Origin: Gemmatimonadetes bacterium bin94
GTDB lineage: Bacteria; Gemmatimonadota; Gemmatimonadetes; Longimicrobiales; Gaopeijiaceae
Direction: 5' to 3'
Length of the DNA stretch: 64,000 nucleotides
Assembly (NCBI GenBank): GCA_002238865.1
Contig: MPNE01000005.1
Coordinates: 62,001 to 126,000, forward strand
Shown here: positions 3,918 to 12,800 of the stretch, in pieces
How positions within the stretch are numbered: position 1 is the first letter of the stretch
How the letters are laid out: every line of letters starts with the position of its first letter
Made by a program: the position numbers and the translations under genes
Notes under the pieces: generated by a model
What the model saw: only the letters and a program-made list of their open reading frames with translations
Database searches by the model: none
What the model was told of the DNA's origin: nothing

Positions 3918-5126
3918 CTATCCCCCCGAACGCATCAACGACCAGACCTGCACGTATTCCACCCCGAGGTCGTCGGTGACGCGGCCCAGGATGTAGTCGG
4001 CACCGATTTCGTAGACGTTCATCCCGGCGGGCGTTTCCACGAAGCCGAGCGCGCGTCCCTCCGGGTCGAACACGGTCCACAGTGGATTCGTCCGCGGCTC
4101 GCCGGGCAGGTCGTATTCCTCGACCCAGAGATGTCCCAGGGCGTCGGCGACGATCTGGTCGAACGCCGGAAACGTCTCTGCAATCGGCACCTCCTCGAAG
4201 GTCCGACGTAGCTCCTGGCGCCGTTCAGCCTGTTGTTCGGGGGGCCTGAGCGCCACACGCCGCTCGATCTCGGCGTCCGTGTGGGTCGGGGTCGGCGCAA
4301 CCAGGGCATGGTCGCGCCGGACGATGCGGCTGAGCGCCCCGGCGGGTTCAAAGGCCCTGATTTCGTAGGTGTCGTTGGGGGCCACGACAAACAGGCCGGC
4401 CCACGCGGTTGTGCGCGTGGAGCGCGTGAAGGGGATCGTCATGATACTGAACACATTTCCGGATCCCGAGGTATGCATTTCGCTGCCCGGAAAGGGGCCC
4501 AGTGACGCCAGTACCTGTCCGTCCGCGTCGACGACTTCGTGATTGCGTTGCCGGCGGTCCCGCCCGTCATCGAGGCTGAAACCGCCAGCGCTGAATCCGG
4601 AGGCGAGGATTGCGCCGGTCGGCAAGGCCACATGGGCGCGCAGATCCCCGGGAATCAGCGTCCGGCCGAAGTTCCCGGAGGAGTCGAAGACGGAAAGACG
4701 GTCGCTCTGCGAATACCATGCGATCAGCGAGTCCCCCGGCCAGTGGGCGACCTCCAGCAGGCTGTTGAACTCACCGGGTCCTTCTCCCCGTCCTCCCCAT
4801 GTGTCGACATGGATTCCCGACGCGTCGAAGATACGCAACTCCTGCGAGCTCCGGTTGGCGACGACGATCCGGCCGTCCGGCATCGTCAACGCGTCGCGGA
4901 CCTGATCCAGGAGATAGGGCTCCTCGCCCTCGAGCGCCCCGATCGAGACCGAGGGCACCGAGTCGACCCGCCAGCCGAGCCTCGATCCATCGGGCGGGCG
5001 CGCGCTCTCGACGATGCTGACTCCGGCGCTGTCCCGCGCTTCGGACCCGAGTTCAAGGGTGGCGCCCCGGTCACCGCAAGCGGCTGTCGCCAGGGCGATG
5101 ACTGCGGCTCCGAATACGATTCTCAT
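3918..5126 (-). CDS. Six-bladed beta-propeller (NHL-like) lipoprotein
   Basis: A 402-residue exported protein. The start is the ATG at 5126, which overlaps the stop of the M56 gene (ATGA), giving MRIVFGAAVIALATAACGDRG: a short signal peptide ending in a lipobox-like TAAC, so it is probably anchored by Cys18. The mature part has the repeated pattern of 6-bladed propellers, with segments such as DGRIVVANRSSQELRIFD, the GGRGEGPGEF loop and GHLWVEEYDL. This is the third gene of a BlaI/M56/propeller operon, so it may be the sensed or protected cargo of that regulatory pair; that role is inference. The longer upstream reading frame is just the antisense of the M56 gene. Confidence 0.8.
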   Translation of the reverse strand: MRIVFGAAVIALATAACGDRGATLELGSEARDSAGVSIVESARPPDGSRLGWRVDSVPSVSIGALEGEEPYLLDQVRDALTMPDGRIVVANRSSQELRIFDASGIHVDTWGGRGEGPGEFNSLLEVAHWPGDSLIAWYSQSDRLSVFDSSGNFGRTLIPGDLRAHVALPTGAILASGFSAGGFSLDDGRDRRQRNHEVVDADGQVLASLGPFPGSEMHTSGSGNVFSIMTIPFTRSTRTTAWAGLFVVAPNDTYEIRAFEPAGALSRIVRRDHALVAPTPTHTDAEIERRVALRPPEQQAERRQELRRTFEEVPIAETFPAFDQIVADALGHLWVEEYDLPGEPRTNPLWTVFDPEGRALGFVETPAGMNVYEIGADYILGRVTDDLGVEYVQVWSLMRSGG

Positions 5127-6738
5127 CTCTCGCTCCCGAAGACTGTGATTCGATGTTCCCCCGTCGGCTGGGCTTGGCGAATCCGTTCCAACAACACGCT
5201 GCCGCTGCTGTTGCCATGCAGACGGTGTCGTTCGTCGGGCTCCCAGCCTTCGCAAATGCCGCGCCAGCCGCCGGCCGCGCTTCCCCAGCCCACGCACACG
5301 TTCCGGTCGACGGAGTCTGCCGTCCCCCCGAGATCGTTGGACATCGCCCTCGCGCACGCGGCCATGGCTGCGTCGCGGGTATCCTCGTCCGGTTCGTCCG
5401 GATCCAACAGGCATGCCGGAGGCTGCACCGGCGCGTCGGCGAGAGCGTGCGGACCGACGTTGCCGTCCACCCGGTCGAATATCCAGTAGGTGTACACCGG
5501 ATCGCCTCCAAACAGCTCCTTCAGCTCTGCCGCACGCGAAGCCGGGAGCACGACGACGACCTCGGATTGGGCCACCGGCGGCGGCATGGGCGAGCCCTCC
5601 GGCAATGTCGGTGTCGACAGGTCGGCTGTGCCGCAATACACGAGCCCGAGAGGAAGCAGACATACCGTGGCCGCGGCACCCGCCGTACGAATCCAGCGGG
5701 GTGCCCGGCCGGTCGATTCGCGCTGGAGGAGCACTCGCAGCCTCCGTTCGAGAGCCGCGGGGTCGCGGGGGCTCGCCGCACCCGTCGCGAATGCCGGTGT
5801 GGGGCGCGCGGGCGGAGTCGACATGAGCTCGACCGCGCGAAGAAGCGACGTGGCGAAGGCGCGAGGGGTTGCACCGAGAGCCGTCACGCCCAGGGCGTCG
5901 CACGACGCTTCTTCGGCAGCCCTGAGTTCGCGGCGGGCCCACCATGCCATCGGATTCCACCAGAAGGCCGCGCAGGCCAGCCATTCAATCCAGCGCACCA
6001 CGTGGTCTCGCCTGCGAACGTGAGCGAGCTCGTGCGCCAACACCGAGCGGAGCTCCTGCCGGTCCAGACCCACCACGAGAAACGAGGGAATGACCAGATG
6101 GATCCGACCGCCCGTCCAGCACACCATGGGCGATACGCGCGCGGTTGTGGTGTGCACCTCCGGCAGCCGCGACAGGCCGAGCCGGCCGCCGATTTCGGCG
6201 ACCTGGCGAAGTAGCGGCGGCGGGGCGGGGCGTGGGGGGGGGGGCAGGCAAGCCCCGAAAGGCGGAGCGGGCCGCCGATTTCGGCGACCTGGCGAAGTAG
6301 CGGCGGCGGCGCGGGCCGTGAGGTGCGGATCAGCCAACGCCGAAAGCGCCATACGCGGGCCAGCGTCCACCCCAGCAGCAGGACGGTGCCGACAAGCCAC
6401 GCCAGCGCGAATCCGGCCTTGCCGTACCCGGCAATCCAGGTGCCGAGGGACGTGCCGGGCGCGGCGAGTTCGTGAGCGGGGCGTTCCACCGGGGACAGCG
6501 CCTTCGGTTCCCCCGCGAGTGCCGCGCCGTCGCCGGTCACCGTAGCGGCTGAGGTCTGTCCCGGAAGCACCGGAATCGAGACCACCGCCGGAATCAGCAG
6601 GGTGACGAGCACCAGCAGCCAGAGCGAATAGGCGATGGCGGGGTGGGCAACGCGCCGCTGCACCACCCACGCCAGTCCGGCCAGCAGCGCGGAGATGACC
6701 AGCTTGCTCGCTCCGATCTGAATCAGAATGTCGAACAT
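5123..6738 (-). CDS. M56 family (BlaR1/MecR1-like) membrane zinc metallopeptidase, reading frame interrupted
   Basis: The N-terminal frame starts at ATG 6738 (MFDILIQIGASKLVISALL) with GGAGGAG just upstream inside the end of blaI, and encodes several membrane segments. The second frame carries the catalytic HELAH motif and the FWWNPMAWW segment typical of M56 proteases, then a transmembrane segment and a ~170-residue extracytoplasmic tail rich in Cys, unlike the penicillin-binding domain of BlaR1. Both frames encode the same stretch APPPLLRQVAEIGG because of an 86-bp out-of-frame duplication (6184-6309). Deleting 86 bp restores one open frame of 509 residues, the expected family length. The family cleaves or inactivates the cognate BlaI repressor on sensing an envelope signal. 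The break is probably an assembly error rather than a true mutation. Confidence 0.82.
6184..6309. repeat. 86-bp imperfect tandem duplication with G-saturated spacer, breaking the M56 gene
   Basis: The 40-bp sequence at 6184-6223 recurs exactly at 6270-6309. The spacer 6224-6275 is not independent sequence: aligned to 6310 onward it matches base for base with differences that are almost all to G (for example at 6224, 6230, 6235, 6238, 6240, 6243, 6244, 6248, 6252). The spacer is therefore a G-degraded copy of the flanking DNA. Since 86 is not a multiple of 3 it shifts the frame of the M56 gene. Confidence 0.9.
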
Positions 6739-6739
6739 G

Positions 6740-7105
6740 CTACTCCTCCAGGATTCGCCGAAGTTTGTCGATCTCGGCGAGAGGGAGCCTGTTGTCTTCT
6801 ACCAGGCGGGTGATCATCGGCACCAGGGAGCCCTGGGTGAGCCGGTTTGCGAGGGATTCCAGCTGCTCGCTGGCGTACTCCTCGCGGCTGACCGCGGGCG
6901 AGAAGATGCTCACGCCCAGGTCGCGGTCGCGGACCACGAGGCCCTTGGCCCCGAGCCGCTGCAGGAGTCGTTGCACGGTGCCGTGCTGCGGCCTGGCGAC
7001 ATCGGGGTAGAGTTGCTCGAGGATCTGACGGGCGGTGAGACGGCCCTTTTTCCACAGCAGCTCCATTACCGAGAGTTCGGCGTTGGGCAGCGATTGAATG
7101 GTCAT
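6740..7105 (-). CDS. BlaI/MecI/CopY-family winged-helix repressor
   Basis: A 121-residue dimeric repressor. It shows the BlaI pattern: ELSVMELLWKKGRLTARQIL (helix 1 to recognition region), then GTVQRLLQRLGAKGLVVRD forming the wing, and a C-terminal dimerisation helix in which M56 partners usually cleave. The frame is open from 7162, but the promoter -10 box lies at 7159-7164, so translation must begin downstream; ATG 7105 has GAAAG (7115-7119) nine bases ahead (ATG 7114 is an alternative). The stop TAG (6742-6740) almost touches the M56 start. No beta-lactamase gene is nearby, so this is a generic signal-responsive BlaI/M56 pair. Confidence 0.9.
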   Translation of the reverse strand: MTIQSLPNAELSVMELLWKKGRLTARQILEQLYPDVARPQHGTVQRLLQRLGAKGLVVRDRDLGVSIFSPAVSREEYASEQLESLANRLTQGSLVPMITRLVEDNRLPLAEIDKLRRILEE

Positions 7106-7142
7106 GGCAGGCATCTTTCGGCAGAGCCCCGGGGGTGATGAC

Positions 7143-7187
7143 ACGACAACATGTCGTAACATTAAGACACGATGTCGTAGATGTCAA
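7143..7187 (-). promoter_or_regulatory. Promoter and operator of the blaI-M56-propeller operon
   Basis: On the minus strand TTGACA (7187-7182) is followed after exactly 17 bp by TAATGT (7164-7159), a near-consensus sigma70 promoter. Embedded in it are two direct copies of ATGTCGTA (7151-7158 and 7172-7179, 21 bp apart; TACGACAT on the minus strand) and the interrupted palindrome ACGAC-AACAT-GTCGT (7143 onward). This is the position and periodicity expected for autoregulation by the BlaI-type repressor. The divergent pxpA gene starts at 7232, so the region may also influence it. Confidence 0.8.
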
Positions 7188-7231
7188 GCCGGGGGGGTGC
7201 GAACGTCGTTGTGGCGGCTATATCTTTCCGC

Positions 7232-7963
7232 ATGCTGATCAACTGCGACATGGGGGAGAGCTACGGGCCCTGGGAGAAGGGGGCCGACGAAGCTGTGATG
7301 CCGCTGATCGACTGGGCCAACATCGCGTGCGGAGGCCATGCGGGAGACCCGGACACGATGGCGCGCACGCTGTCGCTGGCGGCCGAGCACGGTGTACGGG
7401 CGGGCGCGCATCCCGGCTATCCCGACCGTCGCAACTTCGGGCGCCTGAGGCTGGACTGGCCACTCGATTCGCTCGTGCTCGAGGTGCAGGCGCAGATCGG
7501 AGCGCTTCAGGCCGTCGCGACCGCGCTGGGGACAGGCCTTCACCATGTGAAGCCGCACGGGGCACTGTACCTTGCCATGATGAATGACGACCGGCTGCTC
7601 AAGCGGCTGGCCGAAGGCGTTGCCGCCGTGGATCCGTCGCTCGCCTTCGTCGTGCAGGCAACGCCGGATCGCGAGCGGCACGCGGCGATGCTTGAGCACA
7701 CGGGGCTGGTGCTGGCGTTCGAGGCCTTCGCCGACCGCGCCTACGCCGCCGACGGACGCCTCCAGTCGCGCTCGATCCAGGGGGCGGTCCTCGGCGATCA
7801 CGACGCGGTCGCTGACCATGTGGCGCATCTCCTCGACGGTTTCGTGGAGACGCCCGAGGGAACGCTGCCGGTGCGGGCCGAGACGTTGTGCGTACACGGC
7901 GACAACCCTTCGGCGGTGGGGGTTCTGAGCCGCATCCGTGAGCTGGTGCCACGGCGCACGTGA
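7232..7963 (+). CDS. pxpA: 5-oxoprolinase subunit A (LamB/YcsF family)
   Basis: A 243-residue cytoplasmic protein. With PxpB and PxpC it hydrolyses 5-oxoproline (pyroglutamate) to glutamate using ATP. The N-terminus MLINCDMGESYGPW holds the family motif N-x-D-x-GE, followed by the NIACGGHAGD and HVKPHGALY motifs of this TIM-barrel fold. ATG 7232 is chosen because the family starts immediately before this motif; an in-frame GTG at 7211 is possible. The stop overlaps the pxpB GTG by 4 nt. The E. coli protein is 244 residues. Confidence 0.93.
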   Translation: MLINCDMGESYGPWEKGADEAVMPLIDWANIACGGHAGDPDTMARTLSLAAEHGVRAGAHPGYPDRRNFGRLRLDWPLDSLVLEVQAQIGALQAVATALGTGLHHVKPHGALYLAMMNDDRLLKRLAEGVAAVDPSLAFVVQATPDRERHAAMLEHTGLVLAFEAFADRAYAADGRLQSRSIQGAVLGDHDAVADHVAHLLDGFVETPEGTLPVRAETLCVHGDNPSAVGVLSRIRELVPRRT

Positions 7964-8631
7964 TCACCTTCCCGGGCCCAGTCAGCGCCCTGGTCACCCT
8001 GCCGGTGCCCGCCGACCGGGATGGGATCGCGCGCGTGCTCGGCCTCGAGCGCTTTGCACGTGACGCGCTGCCGGATGTGCGGGTGACGATTCCGGCGTAC
8101 AACCGGCTGCTGATCGAAGGTTCGCCGCGCAGTTGGGACCCCGCGGACGTTGAGGCCCGGCTGGCAACCGCCGCCAGGGAGTGCGCTCTGAAGGTGCCCG
8201 AGATCGAGACGGGCGATCCCGTTTCGCTGCCCGTTTGCTACGATCCCGAACTGGCACCGGACCTCGTGGATGTGTCAGCGAGCAAGGGTCTCGGCGTGGC
8301 GGAGGTCGCACGGCTCCACAGCCGCACTGTGTACGTTGTGCTGGCGACGGGGTTTGCGCCGGGGTTCGCATACCTGGGCGACCTGGACGCGCGGATTGCC
8401 ATGCCTCGCCTGGCCACGCCCCGCCGACGGGTCGAGGTGGGCTCGGTCGGGATCGCGGACCGGCGCACCGGCATCTATCCGGCGGCGGGCCCGGGTGGGT
8501 GGCGACTCATCGGCCGCGTCCCTCCGGCGTTTTTCGCGGATCCCACGGAGCGGATCTCCCGCTTCCGCCCGGGCGGCACGGTCAAGCTTCGCATGATCGG
8601 TCGTGACGCGTACGAGGCGGAATGCGGATGA
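7960..8631 (+). CDS. pxpB: 5-oxoprolinase subunit B (KipI-like)
   Basis: A 223-residue protein of the PxpB/KipI family, the subunit that with PxpC forms the ATP-dependent phosphorylating half of prokaryotic 5-oxoprolinase. The conserved segment ATGFAPGFAYLGDLD, followed by the PRLATPRRRVEVGSVGIA stretch and the GGWRLIGR motif, is diagnostic. The GTG start overlaps pxpA (GTGA). In some bacteria KipI homologues inhibit a sporulation kinase, but the three-gene context here points to 5-oxoproline breakdown. Confidence 0.93.
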   Translation: MITFPGPVSALVTLPVPADRDGIARVLGLERFARDALPDVRVTIPAYNRLLIEGSPRSWDPADVEARLATAARECALKVPEIETGDPVSLPVCYDPELAPDLVDVSASKGLGVAEVARLHSRTVYVVLATGFAPGFAYLGDLDARIAMPRLATPRRRVEVGSVGIADRRTGIYPAAGPGGWRLIGRVPPAFFADPTERISRFRPGGTVKLRMIGRDAYEAECG

Positions 8632-9563
8632 GCCCGCACGGCGTCGTGGATCGGCCCGGGCCGTTCTGCACGATCCAGGATCTGGGGAGACGCACCGGCC
8701 GCCGTGCCGGCCTCGCTCCCGGGGGCGCAATGGATCAGCGGGCGTTTCTCTGGGCCAACCGGCTTCTCGGAAACGACCCGGCGGCGGCGGCGCTCGAGAT
8801 CACCCTGGGCGGCTTCGCCCTGCGCTTCGCGGTTGCAACCGTTGTCGCGCTGACGGGGGCGGGCTGCGCCGCCACGCTCGACGGCGTCGAGGTGGGGGCG
8901 TGGCGCACCTTGCGTGTGCGGCCGGGCCAGATCCTCCGCCTCGGATACGGCGCGACAGGCATGCGCACCTACCTCGCCTTCCCCGGCGGGCTGGACGTCA
9001 CAACGGCGTTCGGCTCGGCGTCGGCCGTCGTGCGAGACGGTCTGCCCGGGTTGCTCGGCCGATGCATCCGTCCGGGCGAGCCGCTGCGCTGGCACGCACC
9101 CGGCCACTGGTGCCCGGTGCGGCGTCTGCCCGACGAACTGGTTCCACCGGACACGGATTCGCTGATGGTGCCGCTGGTCGTCGGCTACGAGTGGGCCGAG
9201 TTCTCGAGCGCCGACCGGACCAGGGTGTTCGACGCGACATGGACGCTGGACCCCGCGAGCGACCGCACCGCGAGCCGCCTGGCTGGTCCCGCCCTGTCCA
9301 CGGGTCCGCGCGTCCTCGACTCGACACCCCTCGTGGACGGCACAATGCAGGTCACCGGCGATGGCCTCCCGCTGGTGTTCATGCGGGACCGTCCGACGAT
9401 CGGCGGGTACGCGAAGCTCGGTTCCGTCGATCCGATTGCGCTCGACTCGCTCGCGCAAGCCCGGCCGGGCACACCCGTCCGCTTCGTCCACGCCCAGCCC
9501 GATTCGCTCCGCGAGGCACTCGCCCGCCGGGAGTCGTTCTTCGAGATCCGTGGCGAGCGGTAG
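8622..9563 (+). CDS. pxpC: 5-oxoprolinase subunit C (biotin-dependent carboxyltransferase-like, KipA family)
   Basis: A 313-residue protein. The family pattern is clear: the GPFCTIQDLGRRTGR segment near the N-terminus, GGAMDQRAF, NDPAAAALEIT, and the C-terminal DRPTIGGYAKLGSV motif. It completes the 5-oxoprolinase complex with PxpA and PxpB. The start overlaps the end of pxpB by 10 nt (ATG 8622; ATG 8628 is an alternative with a 4-nt overlap), so translation is coupled. The three genes form a compact operon divergent from the BlaI operon. Confidence 0.92.
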   Translation: MRMSPHGVVDRPGPFCTIQDLGRRTGRRAGLAPGGAMDQRAFLWANRLLGNDPAAAALEITLGGFALRFAVATVVALTGAGCAATLDGVEVGAWRTLRVRPGQILRLGYGATGMRTYLAFPGGLDVTTAFGSASAVVRDGLPGLLGRCIRPGEPLRWHAPGHWCPVRRLPDELVPPDTDSLMVPLVVGYEWAEFSSADRTRVFDATWTLDPASDRTASRLAGPALSTGPRVLDSTPLVDGTMQVTGDGLPLVFMRDRPTIGGYAKLGSVDPIALDSLAQARPGTPVRFVHAQPDSLREALARRESFFEIRGER

Positions 9564-9768
9564 CGGTGCCCGGGCGGGGCAGGCCGTGCCCGCGAGTTGC
9601 AGCCGGGCCTGTATGACCTGCTCCCGCCTTGCCCCGCCGCCCCCCTTTCCGCACCTTATTTCGGCCCTGGAAGCGGTGCTCCCCGCCCGATGGCTGCATT
9701 CCGTTGCCCCTCTTCCTCGGCACCAACCAGCAAAGCCCACCCGTGTAGTTGAAGGGAGCCGGTCCGAA
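9564..9768. other. Intergenic region with long-range inverted repeat between pxpC and the MetS-like gene
   Basis: GGCGGGGCA (9573-9581) is matched by its exact inverse TGCCCCGCC (9630-9638) across a 48-nt loop that itself contains complementary GC-rich segments. It may act as a terminator for the pxp operon, though no T-run follows. No promoter is obvious. The ribosome binding site of the next gene (AAGGGAG, from 9752) lies at its end. Confidence 0.35.
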
Positions 9769-9882
9769 ATGACCACCGCAAGCTGGATCACCATGATCGT
9801 GATCATGGCGTTCGTGTGGGGAGGCCTGACCATGGCCCTCCGCACCGCGGTCAAGAAGGAATCCGCGAAGAGCGCCGACTGA
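9769..9882 (+). CDS. MetS-like small subunit of an NSS transporter (37 aa)
   Basis: A 37-residue micropeptide with a single membrane helix (about residues 6-25), the signature FVWGGLTMAL after it and a short basic cytoplasmic tail. This matches the MetS family, tiny proteins required for methionine/alanine uptake by MetP, an NSS-type transporter studied in Corynebacterium. A good ribosome site (AAGGGAG) precedes the ATG. It is 13 nt upstream of carB rather than beside a transporter; the only NSS transporter in the window is at 126-1619. Assignment rests on size, topology and the WGG motif. Confidence 0.72.
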   Translation: MTTASWITMIVIMAFVWGGLTMALRTAVKKESAKSAD

Positions 9883-9895
9883 CTGCTGATCGACC

Positions 9896-12800
9896 TTGCC
9901 TAAACGCACCGACATCGACTCGATCCTGATTCTGGGGTCGGGTCCCATCGTAATCGGCCAAGCCTGCGAATTCGACTATTCCGGCACACAGGCGGTGCGT
10001 GCACTGAAGGAGGAGGGCTACAGGGTCGTCCTGGTCAACTCCAATCCGGCGACCATCATGACCGACCCGGACCTGGCGGACCGGACCTACATCGAGCCGC
10101 TGACTCCCGAGTGGGTCGCGCGTGTCATCGAACGCGAAAAGCCGGACGCACTCCTCCCCACCATGGGGGGGCAGACCGCGCTGAACATCGCCATGGACCT
10201 GCACCGGCAGGGGGTGCTGGCGGAGCACGGCGTCGAGCTGATCGGGGCCGACGAGCGCTCGATCAAGATGGCCGAGAACCGCGAGGAATTCACCGCCGCG
10301 ATGGACCGGATCGGGCTGGCCGTGCCCCACGGGGGATTTGCGCGGTCCGTGGACGACGCCCTCGAGATCATCGAGGACACCCGCTACCCGGCCATCATAC
10401 GGCCTTCCTTCACCCTGGGCGGCACGGGGGGCGGCACCGCCTACAACCTCGCCGAGTTCGAGGCTCAGGTGCGCAAGGGGCTCGACGCGAGCCCGATCGG
10501 CGAGGTGCTGATCGACCGATCCGTGATAGGCTGGAAGGAGTACGAACTCGAGGTCGTCCGCGACGGGCTCGACAACGTGATCATCGTTTGCTCGATCGAG
10601 AATTTCGACCCGATGGGGGTGCACACGGGGGACTCGATCACTGTTGCCCCGGCGCAGACGCTCTCCGACGTCGAGTACCAGCGCATGCGCGACGCCGCGA
10701 TCGCGATCATCCGGGAAATCGGGGTCGAGGCGGGCGGGTGCAACATACAGTTTGCCGTGAATCCGAAAGACGGCGAGATGCTGGTGGTGGAGATGAACCC
10801 CCGGGTGTCCCGCTCGTCGGCACTGGCGTCCAAGGCGACCGGCTTCCCGATCGCGCGCGTGGGCGCAAAGCTGGCGGTCGGATATCACCTCTACGAACTG
10901 CCGAACGATATCACGAAGACCACGCCGGCCTCCTTCGAGCCCGCGCTCGACTACGTGGTGGTGAAATTCCCCAGGTTCGCCTTCGAGAAGTTCCCGGACG
11001 TGGACGATACGCTGGGCGTGCAGATGATGGCGGTGGGTGAGACGATGGCGATCGGGCGCACCTTCCGCTCGGCCTGGCAAAAGGGGCTGCGCGGGCTGGA
11101 GGTGGGGCGGATCGGCTGGGTCTCCGGCAGGATTCCGGGAGACGATGGACTCGAGTCCGACGATCCCCAGGCACTCCTGAGCGCGGTGCGCCGGCCGACC
11201 ACATGGCGCAAATACCAGCTCAAGCGGGCCCTGGAGGCGGGGATCTCGACCGAACGGCTCCACCGGGCCACCGGGATCGACCCGTGGTTCCTCGACCAGT
11301 TGGAGCAGATCATCGAGATGGAGCGCTGGTTCGCTTCCCTGCCGTCCCTCGATGCGGCCTCGGTGCGTCGCATGAAGCGCGAGGGGTTCGCCGACGCGCA
11401 GCTCGCGGCCCTGCGCGGGGTGGACGAGGCCGCCATACGGTCGCAGCGCTGGCAATGGGGGATCCGGCCGACGTACAACGTGGTCGACACCTGCGCCGGG
11501 GAGTTCCCCGCGGCGACGCCCTACTACTACTCATCCTACGAATCGGAAGACGAGTCCAACCCCTCGGACAGGCGCAAGATCGTCATTCTGGGCAGCGGAC
11601 CGAACCGCATCGGGCAGGGAATCGAATTCGACTACTGCTGTGTGCAGGCGGTGCTGGCACTCAAGGAGATCGGGTTCGAGACCATCATGGTCAACTCCAA
11701 CCCGGAGACGGTGTCGACCGATTTCGACGTGAGCGACAAGCTGTACTTCGAACCGCTGACGCTGGAAGACGTGGTCGAGATCGTGGAGCGGGAGCGGCCC
11801 GTGGGGGTGATCGTGCAGCTCGGCGGGCAGACGCCGCTGAATCTGGCCGACGCGCTGGAGGAGCTGGGGGTGCCGATTCTGGGGACTTCGGTCGACGCGA
11901 TCGACCGTGCCGAGGACAGGCGCCGTTTCGAGGAGGTGTGCCGCCGGATCGGGGCGCGGGTGCCGGCGAACGGGACCGCGCTCAGCGAGGACGAGGCGCT
12001 CGTGATTGCGCGAGAGATCGGCTTCCCGGTGCTGGTGCGGCCGTCGTACGTGCTGGGCGGCCGCGCCATGGAGATCGTCTACGACGGGGAGTCGCTGAAG
12101 GGGTATTTCGCACGGGCCGTGAAGGCTTCGCCGGACCACCCGGTGTTGATCGACCGCTTTCTCGAGGACGCCTTCGAGGCGGACGTGGACGCGCTGTCCG
12201 ACGGGACGGACGTGGTGATCGGCGGCATCATGCAGCACATCGAGGACGCAGGCGTGCACTCGGGCGACTCCGCGTGCGTGCTGCCACCGTACCTGCTCGG
12301 GCGCAGGGAACTGGACGAGATGCGCCGCCTGACGAGGAGTTTCGCGCTGGAACTTGGCGTGGTCGGCCTTCTGAACGTGCAGTACGCCGTCAGGGACGGT
12401 CAGGTGTACGTGCTGGAGGTGAACCCGCGGGCTTCGCGGACGGTGCCGTTCGTGGGGAAGGCGACCGGCGTGCCGCTGGCGCGGCTGGCCGCGCGGCTGA
12501 TGGCGGGGGAGAAGCTGGCCGACCTGGACGTGCCGTCCGAGCCGGAGGTAAACGGGGTCGCGGTCAAGGAGGCGGTCTTCCCCTTCAACCGCTTCGACGT
12601 GGACACCCTGCTGGGCCCGGAGATGCGCTCGACCGGCGAGGCCATGGGGGTGGACGACTCGTTCGGCATGGCCTTCGCCAAGGCGCAGGTGTCGGCCGGC
12701 AACCGGCTGCCCGGCGAGAACGACACCCGCACGGTGATCGTCACCGTCAACGACGCGGACAAGCCCACCGTCACGCCCCTGGTGCGGCGGCTGGCCGACC

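Follow-up and report, generated by a model that had tools for sequence, protein, structure and literature searches.

The stretch at positions 7142-7187 of the window (the whole 64,000-nucleotide stretch of DNA analysed here) is, at a probability we put at roughly three in four, the promoter of an autoregulated operon of three genes, which encode a BlaI-type repressor, an M56 membrane protease and a beta-propeller lipoprotein. Two BlaI dimers would sit on two 17-bp pseudo-palindromes, TACGAC-N5-GTCKTA, two helical turns apart and on one face of the DNA. The dimer on the first site (O1) would fill the spacer between the -35 and -10 elements and the dimer on the second (O2) would cover the start site, so that bound repressor would block RNA polymerase. 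A signal outside the cytoplasm would then activate the BlaR1-type M56 protease, which would cleave BlaI and free the operon. This signal would be read by the variable ectodomain of the protease, whose most likely partner is the propeller lipoprotein, and not via a penicillin-binding domain. The reading draws on the promoter layout and its conservation, the symmetry of the operators, the gene order, M56-propeller fusions and an association between protease tail and propeller, all read from sequence; we infer binding, repression, cleavage and partnership.

The Promoter and Its Candidate Operators

On the minus strand, TTGACA (7187-7182) is followed after a 17-bp spacer by TAATGT (7164-7159). The sequence TACGACAT occurs twice on this strand, at 7179-7172 and 7158-7151, with the copies 21 bp apart, and the palindrome ACGACATGTTGTCGT lies at 7157-7143. 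An earlier note, made from the letters of this DNA, had described TTGACA-17-TAATGT with repeats 21 bp apart and a palindrome, and every letter it named was found in place. The repeats and the palindrome are present, but the layout is better described as two full 17-bp pseudo-palindromes. Candidate operator O1 (TACGAC-ATCGT-GTCTTA, minus strand, 7163-7179) fills the promoter spacer, and its last two bases start the -10 element. Candidate operator O2 (TACGAC-ATGTT-GTCGTG, minus strand, 7142-7158) lies directly 3' of the -10 element, over the expected transcription start.

Taken alone, the palindrome is ordinary and at chance level. With up to two mismatches it has 17 matches in the window against 20.3 expected, the one at 7157-7143 being the only exact match. 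Across the genome, ACGAC-N5-GTCGT occurs exactly at three places, the other two inside ORFs, against five for a reversed control pattern. The pattern TTGACA-N17-TAWTGT is exact in the window only here, with one match at up to two mismatches and 0.71 expected. A sigma-70 promoter scan of positions 5000-10000 detected none. The -35 element is exact and the spacing is 17, and TAATGT matches the Escherichia coli consensus TATAAT at only three of six bases, which is poor; relatives keep TAAYRT. We count the promoter as real because its layout is conserved in relatives, and it is this conservation that shows more than chance in the palindrome as well.

Conservation among Relatives

A homologue search with the window repressor through 121 genomes of the family resulted in 51 BlaI genes that form one clade (57-100% identity, own copy counted), the next best match being 36% identical. 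These genes are spread over 21 of the 121 genomes, and 20 of those 21 belong to the genus, for which 23 genomes were available. One genome (G025) has up to seven copies, some cut by contig ends. We take several isolates of the group to come from sponges.

Of the 50 upstream regions that could be read, 46 scored at least 22 for a common layout, with a dyad-symmetric candidate dimer operator at the repressor's own promoter. A TTGAC-type -35 element (TTGAC in 44 and TTGACA in 35 of the 46 aligned promoters) is followed by a spacer holding the 17-bp operator TACGAC-N5-GTCKTA, a -10 element at the edge of this operator and another operator offset by 21 bp from the first. The scoring scheme was devised after inspection of the sequences; scores above 20 were reached by 0 of 2782 random windows and by 0 of 2000 shuffles, in which two-base blocks were moved and which are not exact dinucleotide shuffles. 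The four promoters below 22 (L052, the second copy of L060, L063 and L076) were excluded from the spacing and -10 counts. In L054, the first BlaI copy, which has no upstream sequence, was skipped, and the second, a truncated BlaI, was omitted from the tree. At L060, two BlaI-M56 modules stand directly in tandem (minus strand, 5863 and 8029), with operators that differ in quality.

The distance from O1 to O2 is 21 bp in 40 of the 46 promoters, 20 in five and 22 in one. The arms of O1 are 6 bp long and 5 bp apart. In most relatives O1 contributes its final two bases to the -10 element, TAAYRT, and the four-base linker between the operators supplies the rest. Among the 33 promoters above the cut whose repressors carry a TVQR or TIQR recognition helix, the O2 arms are nearly invariant and the middle is variable. 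The right O1 arm has T as its fourth base, just before the two O1 bases of the -10 element, in 27 of the 33 (GTCTTA, not GTCGTA).

The Repressor, Its Candidate Operators and Its Probable Regulon

The repressor gene (6740-7105, minus strand) encodes 121 aa, of which residues 8-121 match PF03965 (84.3 bits, cut-off 22.6), and its structure relatives are solved MecI and BlaI. Staphylococcal repressors are cleaved at an N-F pair. This pair is absent from the window repressor, which has R-L at the position aligned to the N-F of MecI.

Operator letters follow the recognition helix (residues 43-46). The inner arms of O2 are GA[CT]...GTC for 32 of 35 repressors with TVQR or TIQR and for 0 of 14 with AVQS, which mostly have TACGGC, TAAGGC, TAATGC or similar instead. 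On the tree, the AVQS repressors fall into one well-supported clade. Because the switch is one event on the tree, the covariation counts as one observation, shared by descent; repeated origins of the switch were considered and none was found. As read from these alignments, one BlaI subclade has altered its recognition-helix and operator letters together.

The sites in the window lie between divergent genes, and they could be the targets of another regulator or act on the neighbouring divergent gene pxpA (5-oxoprolinase subunit A; 7234-7963, plus strand, with the matched region starting at residue 17 of a longer ORF). We consider this very unlikely. In relatives the sites remain next to BlaI and the gene on their far side varies, with pxpA at a distance of 1.7-1.8 kb in L038, L039, L041 and L042, and changes in the operator letters go along with those in the recognition helix of BlaI. 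Control of pxpA was rejected as a conserved feature, since pxpA stands well away from BlaI where it is seen near the module in relatives, and we do not think it part of the module.

The earlier note had proposed that a search for further copies of the repeats would uncover a regulon. Run with a strict pattern, such a search gave 26 matches in 17 of the 23 genus genomes and 0 for the reversed control, and it recovered only the repressor's own operons. By their coordinates, 23 of the 26 are promoters of BlaI-clade genes already in the set. Two of the remaining three precede a BlaI remnant followed by M56, and one precedes a BlaI start at a contig end. As all 26 lie before BlaI-clade genes or remnants, control by each repressor seems confined to its own operon. 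A wider regulon in this genome was rejected at the stringency of exact palindromes, which elsewhere are inside ORFs and not above control. The two loci with a remnant (L125 and L126) have kept promoter, M56 and propeller and are possibly constitutive. Conservation and the profile match support the suggestion that BlaI-type sites overlap the promoter of the repressor's own operon, with autoregulation the probable outcome.

The M56 Protease Gene

The second gene (5123-6738, minus strand) encodes an M56 protease of BlaR1 type, but its frame is interrupted, which the earlier note had overlooked in placing an M56 gene in the operon. Two tandem 86-bp copies, 86% identical and with a G run, lie at 6165-6336, and the frame is shifted because 86 is not a multiple of 3. 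The window frames match residues 1-163 and about 142 onward of intact orthologues, which are single frames of 497-505 aa, at identities of 49-55% and 57-62%. The catalytic motif is intact in the downstream frame, where HELAH fits HEXXH. This frame scores 62.2 bits with PF05569 (orthologue L039, 101.3 bits; cut-off 31). With the NCBIfam model blaR1_generic, the downstream frame reaches 43 bits and an intact orthologue 47.4, both below the cut-off of 400.

The duplication may mean that the module is decaying in this organism, with a frame-shifted M56 that could not cleave the repressor and an operon that would stay silent. We take this reading seriously but lean against it. The imperfect duplication splits a frame that is single in the orthologues, and broken copies occur elsewhere: the propeller is split in L040, M56 is short in L069 and L080, and BlaI is a remnant in L125 and L126. 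However, both halves of the window M56 still match the orthologues with the catalytic motif intact, and promoter and repressor are intact as well. The genome is also a draft of 83 contigs, and misassembly may account for a GC-rich duplication next to a G run. The interruption may come from such misassembly; alternatively, the copy in the window may be locked in the off state.

No C-terminal penicillin-binding domain was matched by Pfam in the window frames or in any of 12 orthologues and paralogues scanned. The M56 tail had been said to lack this domain, which these scans confirm, and the signal sensed is probably something other than penicillin. The fold of the tail was poorly modelled (mean pLDDT 54), and its PDB matches at E-values up to 0.001 were BlaR1 chains only.

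The Propeller Lipoprotein and the Variable Ectodomain

The third gene (3918-5126, minus strand) encodes a lipoprotein of 402 aa, and its ATG overlaps the M56 stop as ATGA. It matches DUF5128 at 25.8 bits (cut-off 22.9), as do 13 of 16 aligned propeller members. The structural model (pLDDT 82, pTM 0.82) has NHL propellers as its best PDB matches in Foldseek. By profile and model, the lipoprotein is a six-bladed NHL-like propeller; the third gene was thus correctly described before as encoding a beta-propeller lipoprotein and not a beta-lactamase. We take its ATAAC to fit a loose lipobox, with the Cys that follows the signal peptide as the predicted site of lipid attachment.

Propellers accompany most of these modules. 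M56 was in view in 47 modules. Of these, seven have the propeller fused to M56, 25 have one that starts no more than 400 bp downstream and eight have one further away within 2.5 kb; none was found in the remaining seven, although the overlap cut-off placed L070 in the third class and L074 in the last when both have a propeller ORF overlapping the M56 end, and the true count without a propeller is maybe 6 of 47. A propeller is thus fused or downstream in 40 of the 47 (7 fused and 33 downstream). A second BlaI-M56 lineage has M56-propeller fusions in six genomes, including this one, where the pair is on contig C7 (L086:4242-6422). The same genome has two further M56 genes beside BlaI, one with a doubled TonB C-terminal domain (L085:4027-5634) and one whose tail looks by eye like a TonB-receptor plug (L084:3555-4574). 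In L065 and L072, tandem arrays of M56-propeller fusions and secreted propellers stand behind one BlaI gene.

The window locus was recognised in relatives by its neighbouring HD-domain and endonuclease III genes, whose names were read from the sequences. The M56 tail at this locus is of three types, W, X and Y. Type W occurs with a propeller in 6 of 6 cases (the window, L037, L039, L040, L041 and L049, the last with another gene arrangement), and types X and Y in 0 of 4 (L035 and L042; L036 and L038), an association across 10 related loci that represents no more than two joint changes. The protease cores group differently from the tails. L042 shares 79-80% identity with L036 and L038 in the core and 27-31% in the tail, where its identity to L035 is 68%. 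Because of this, and because the presence of a propeller tracks the tail type, M56 tail and propeller seem to be exchanged as one cassette.

The earlier note spoke of an M56-regulated lipoprotein operon, and the propeller could be a plain regulated output. On that account the lipoprotein would be induced to handle the signal, outside sensing, and the fusions elsewhere would be another use of the domain. Classical Bla operons do end with an effector, and four orthologous modules (L035, L036, L038 and L042) persist without a propeller. Propeller genes are also common around these loci, and fused tails are no closer to the secreted propeller of the same operon than to those of other operons. We looked for co-evolution of a fused tail with its own secreted propeller and did not see it; the L066 tail is closer to the propellers of L073 and L072. 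Against the output account, fusions in two M56 lineages and the 6/6 versus 0/4 tail association link the propeller to the ectodomain, and we think the account possible though somewhat improbable. The lipoprotein looks more like a part of the sensor: since the propeller is fused to M56 elsewhere and is associated with tail type W, we read it as most likely the sensor's partner and not merely an output. No report of M56 with propellers was recognised in the literature searched.

A broader reading, which we offer tentatively and with some doubt, is that this lineage has recast BlaI/BlaR1 as a set of parallel one-step modules, in which exchangeable ectodomains and propellers would replace the penicillin sensor and joint divergence of recognition helix and operators among duplicated repressors would prevent cross-talk between copies of different class within one cell.

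Comparison with Known Systems

To our knowledge, BlaR1-type proteases have been described almost exclusively as penicillin sensors, and we know of no signal assigned to M56 genes without a penicillin-binding domain. Orthologous loci with swapped ectodomains, a partner that tracks one ectodomain type and natural fusions make the question of M56 sensing testable. The paired changes in recognition helix and operator are a ready data set for BlaI specificity.

The BlaI/MecI-BlaR1/MecR1 systems of staphylococci and Bacillus licheniformis share with this operon the repressor fold and family, an M56 protease with HEXXH and adjacent genes for repressor and protease. In contrast, the operon described here has no penicillin-binding sensor domain and encodes no beta-lactamase or PBP, with a propeller in their place; its operator letters are other ones and the cleavage-site pair is not conserved. 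Cleavage of BlaI by M56 would follow the pattern of the family. Repression is suggested by the operator sequences together with precedent (PMC8457756; PMC9834060). In Clostridium thermocellum, the sites of BlaI_0696 and BlaI_1845 have inverted arms of 6 bp separated by 5 nt, with two dimer sites at each promoter, autoregulation and a very small regulon (PMC8457756), and the window system resembles them in these respects. They differ in their arms (GTCTAT/GACTAT) and operon contents, and a propeller is not described in the part of the text consulted (PMC8457756). The Mycobacterium tuberculosis homologue of BlaR1 is likewise an M56 protease without a penicillin sensor, as given in the consulted part of its source, which unlike the present system mentions no variable ectodomain with a propeller (PMC9834060). 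The lipoprotein itself fits the known six-bladed DUF5128/NHL propellers by profile and fold, but is here encoded in a BlaI-M56 operon, and in relatives such propellers are also fused to M56. We see the operon as a variant of the known BlaI/BlaR1 scheme, probably with a propeller instead of the penicillin sensor.
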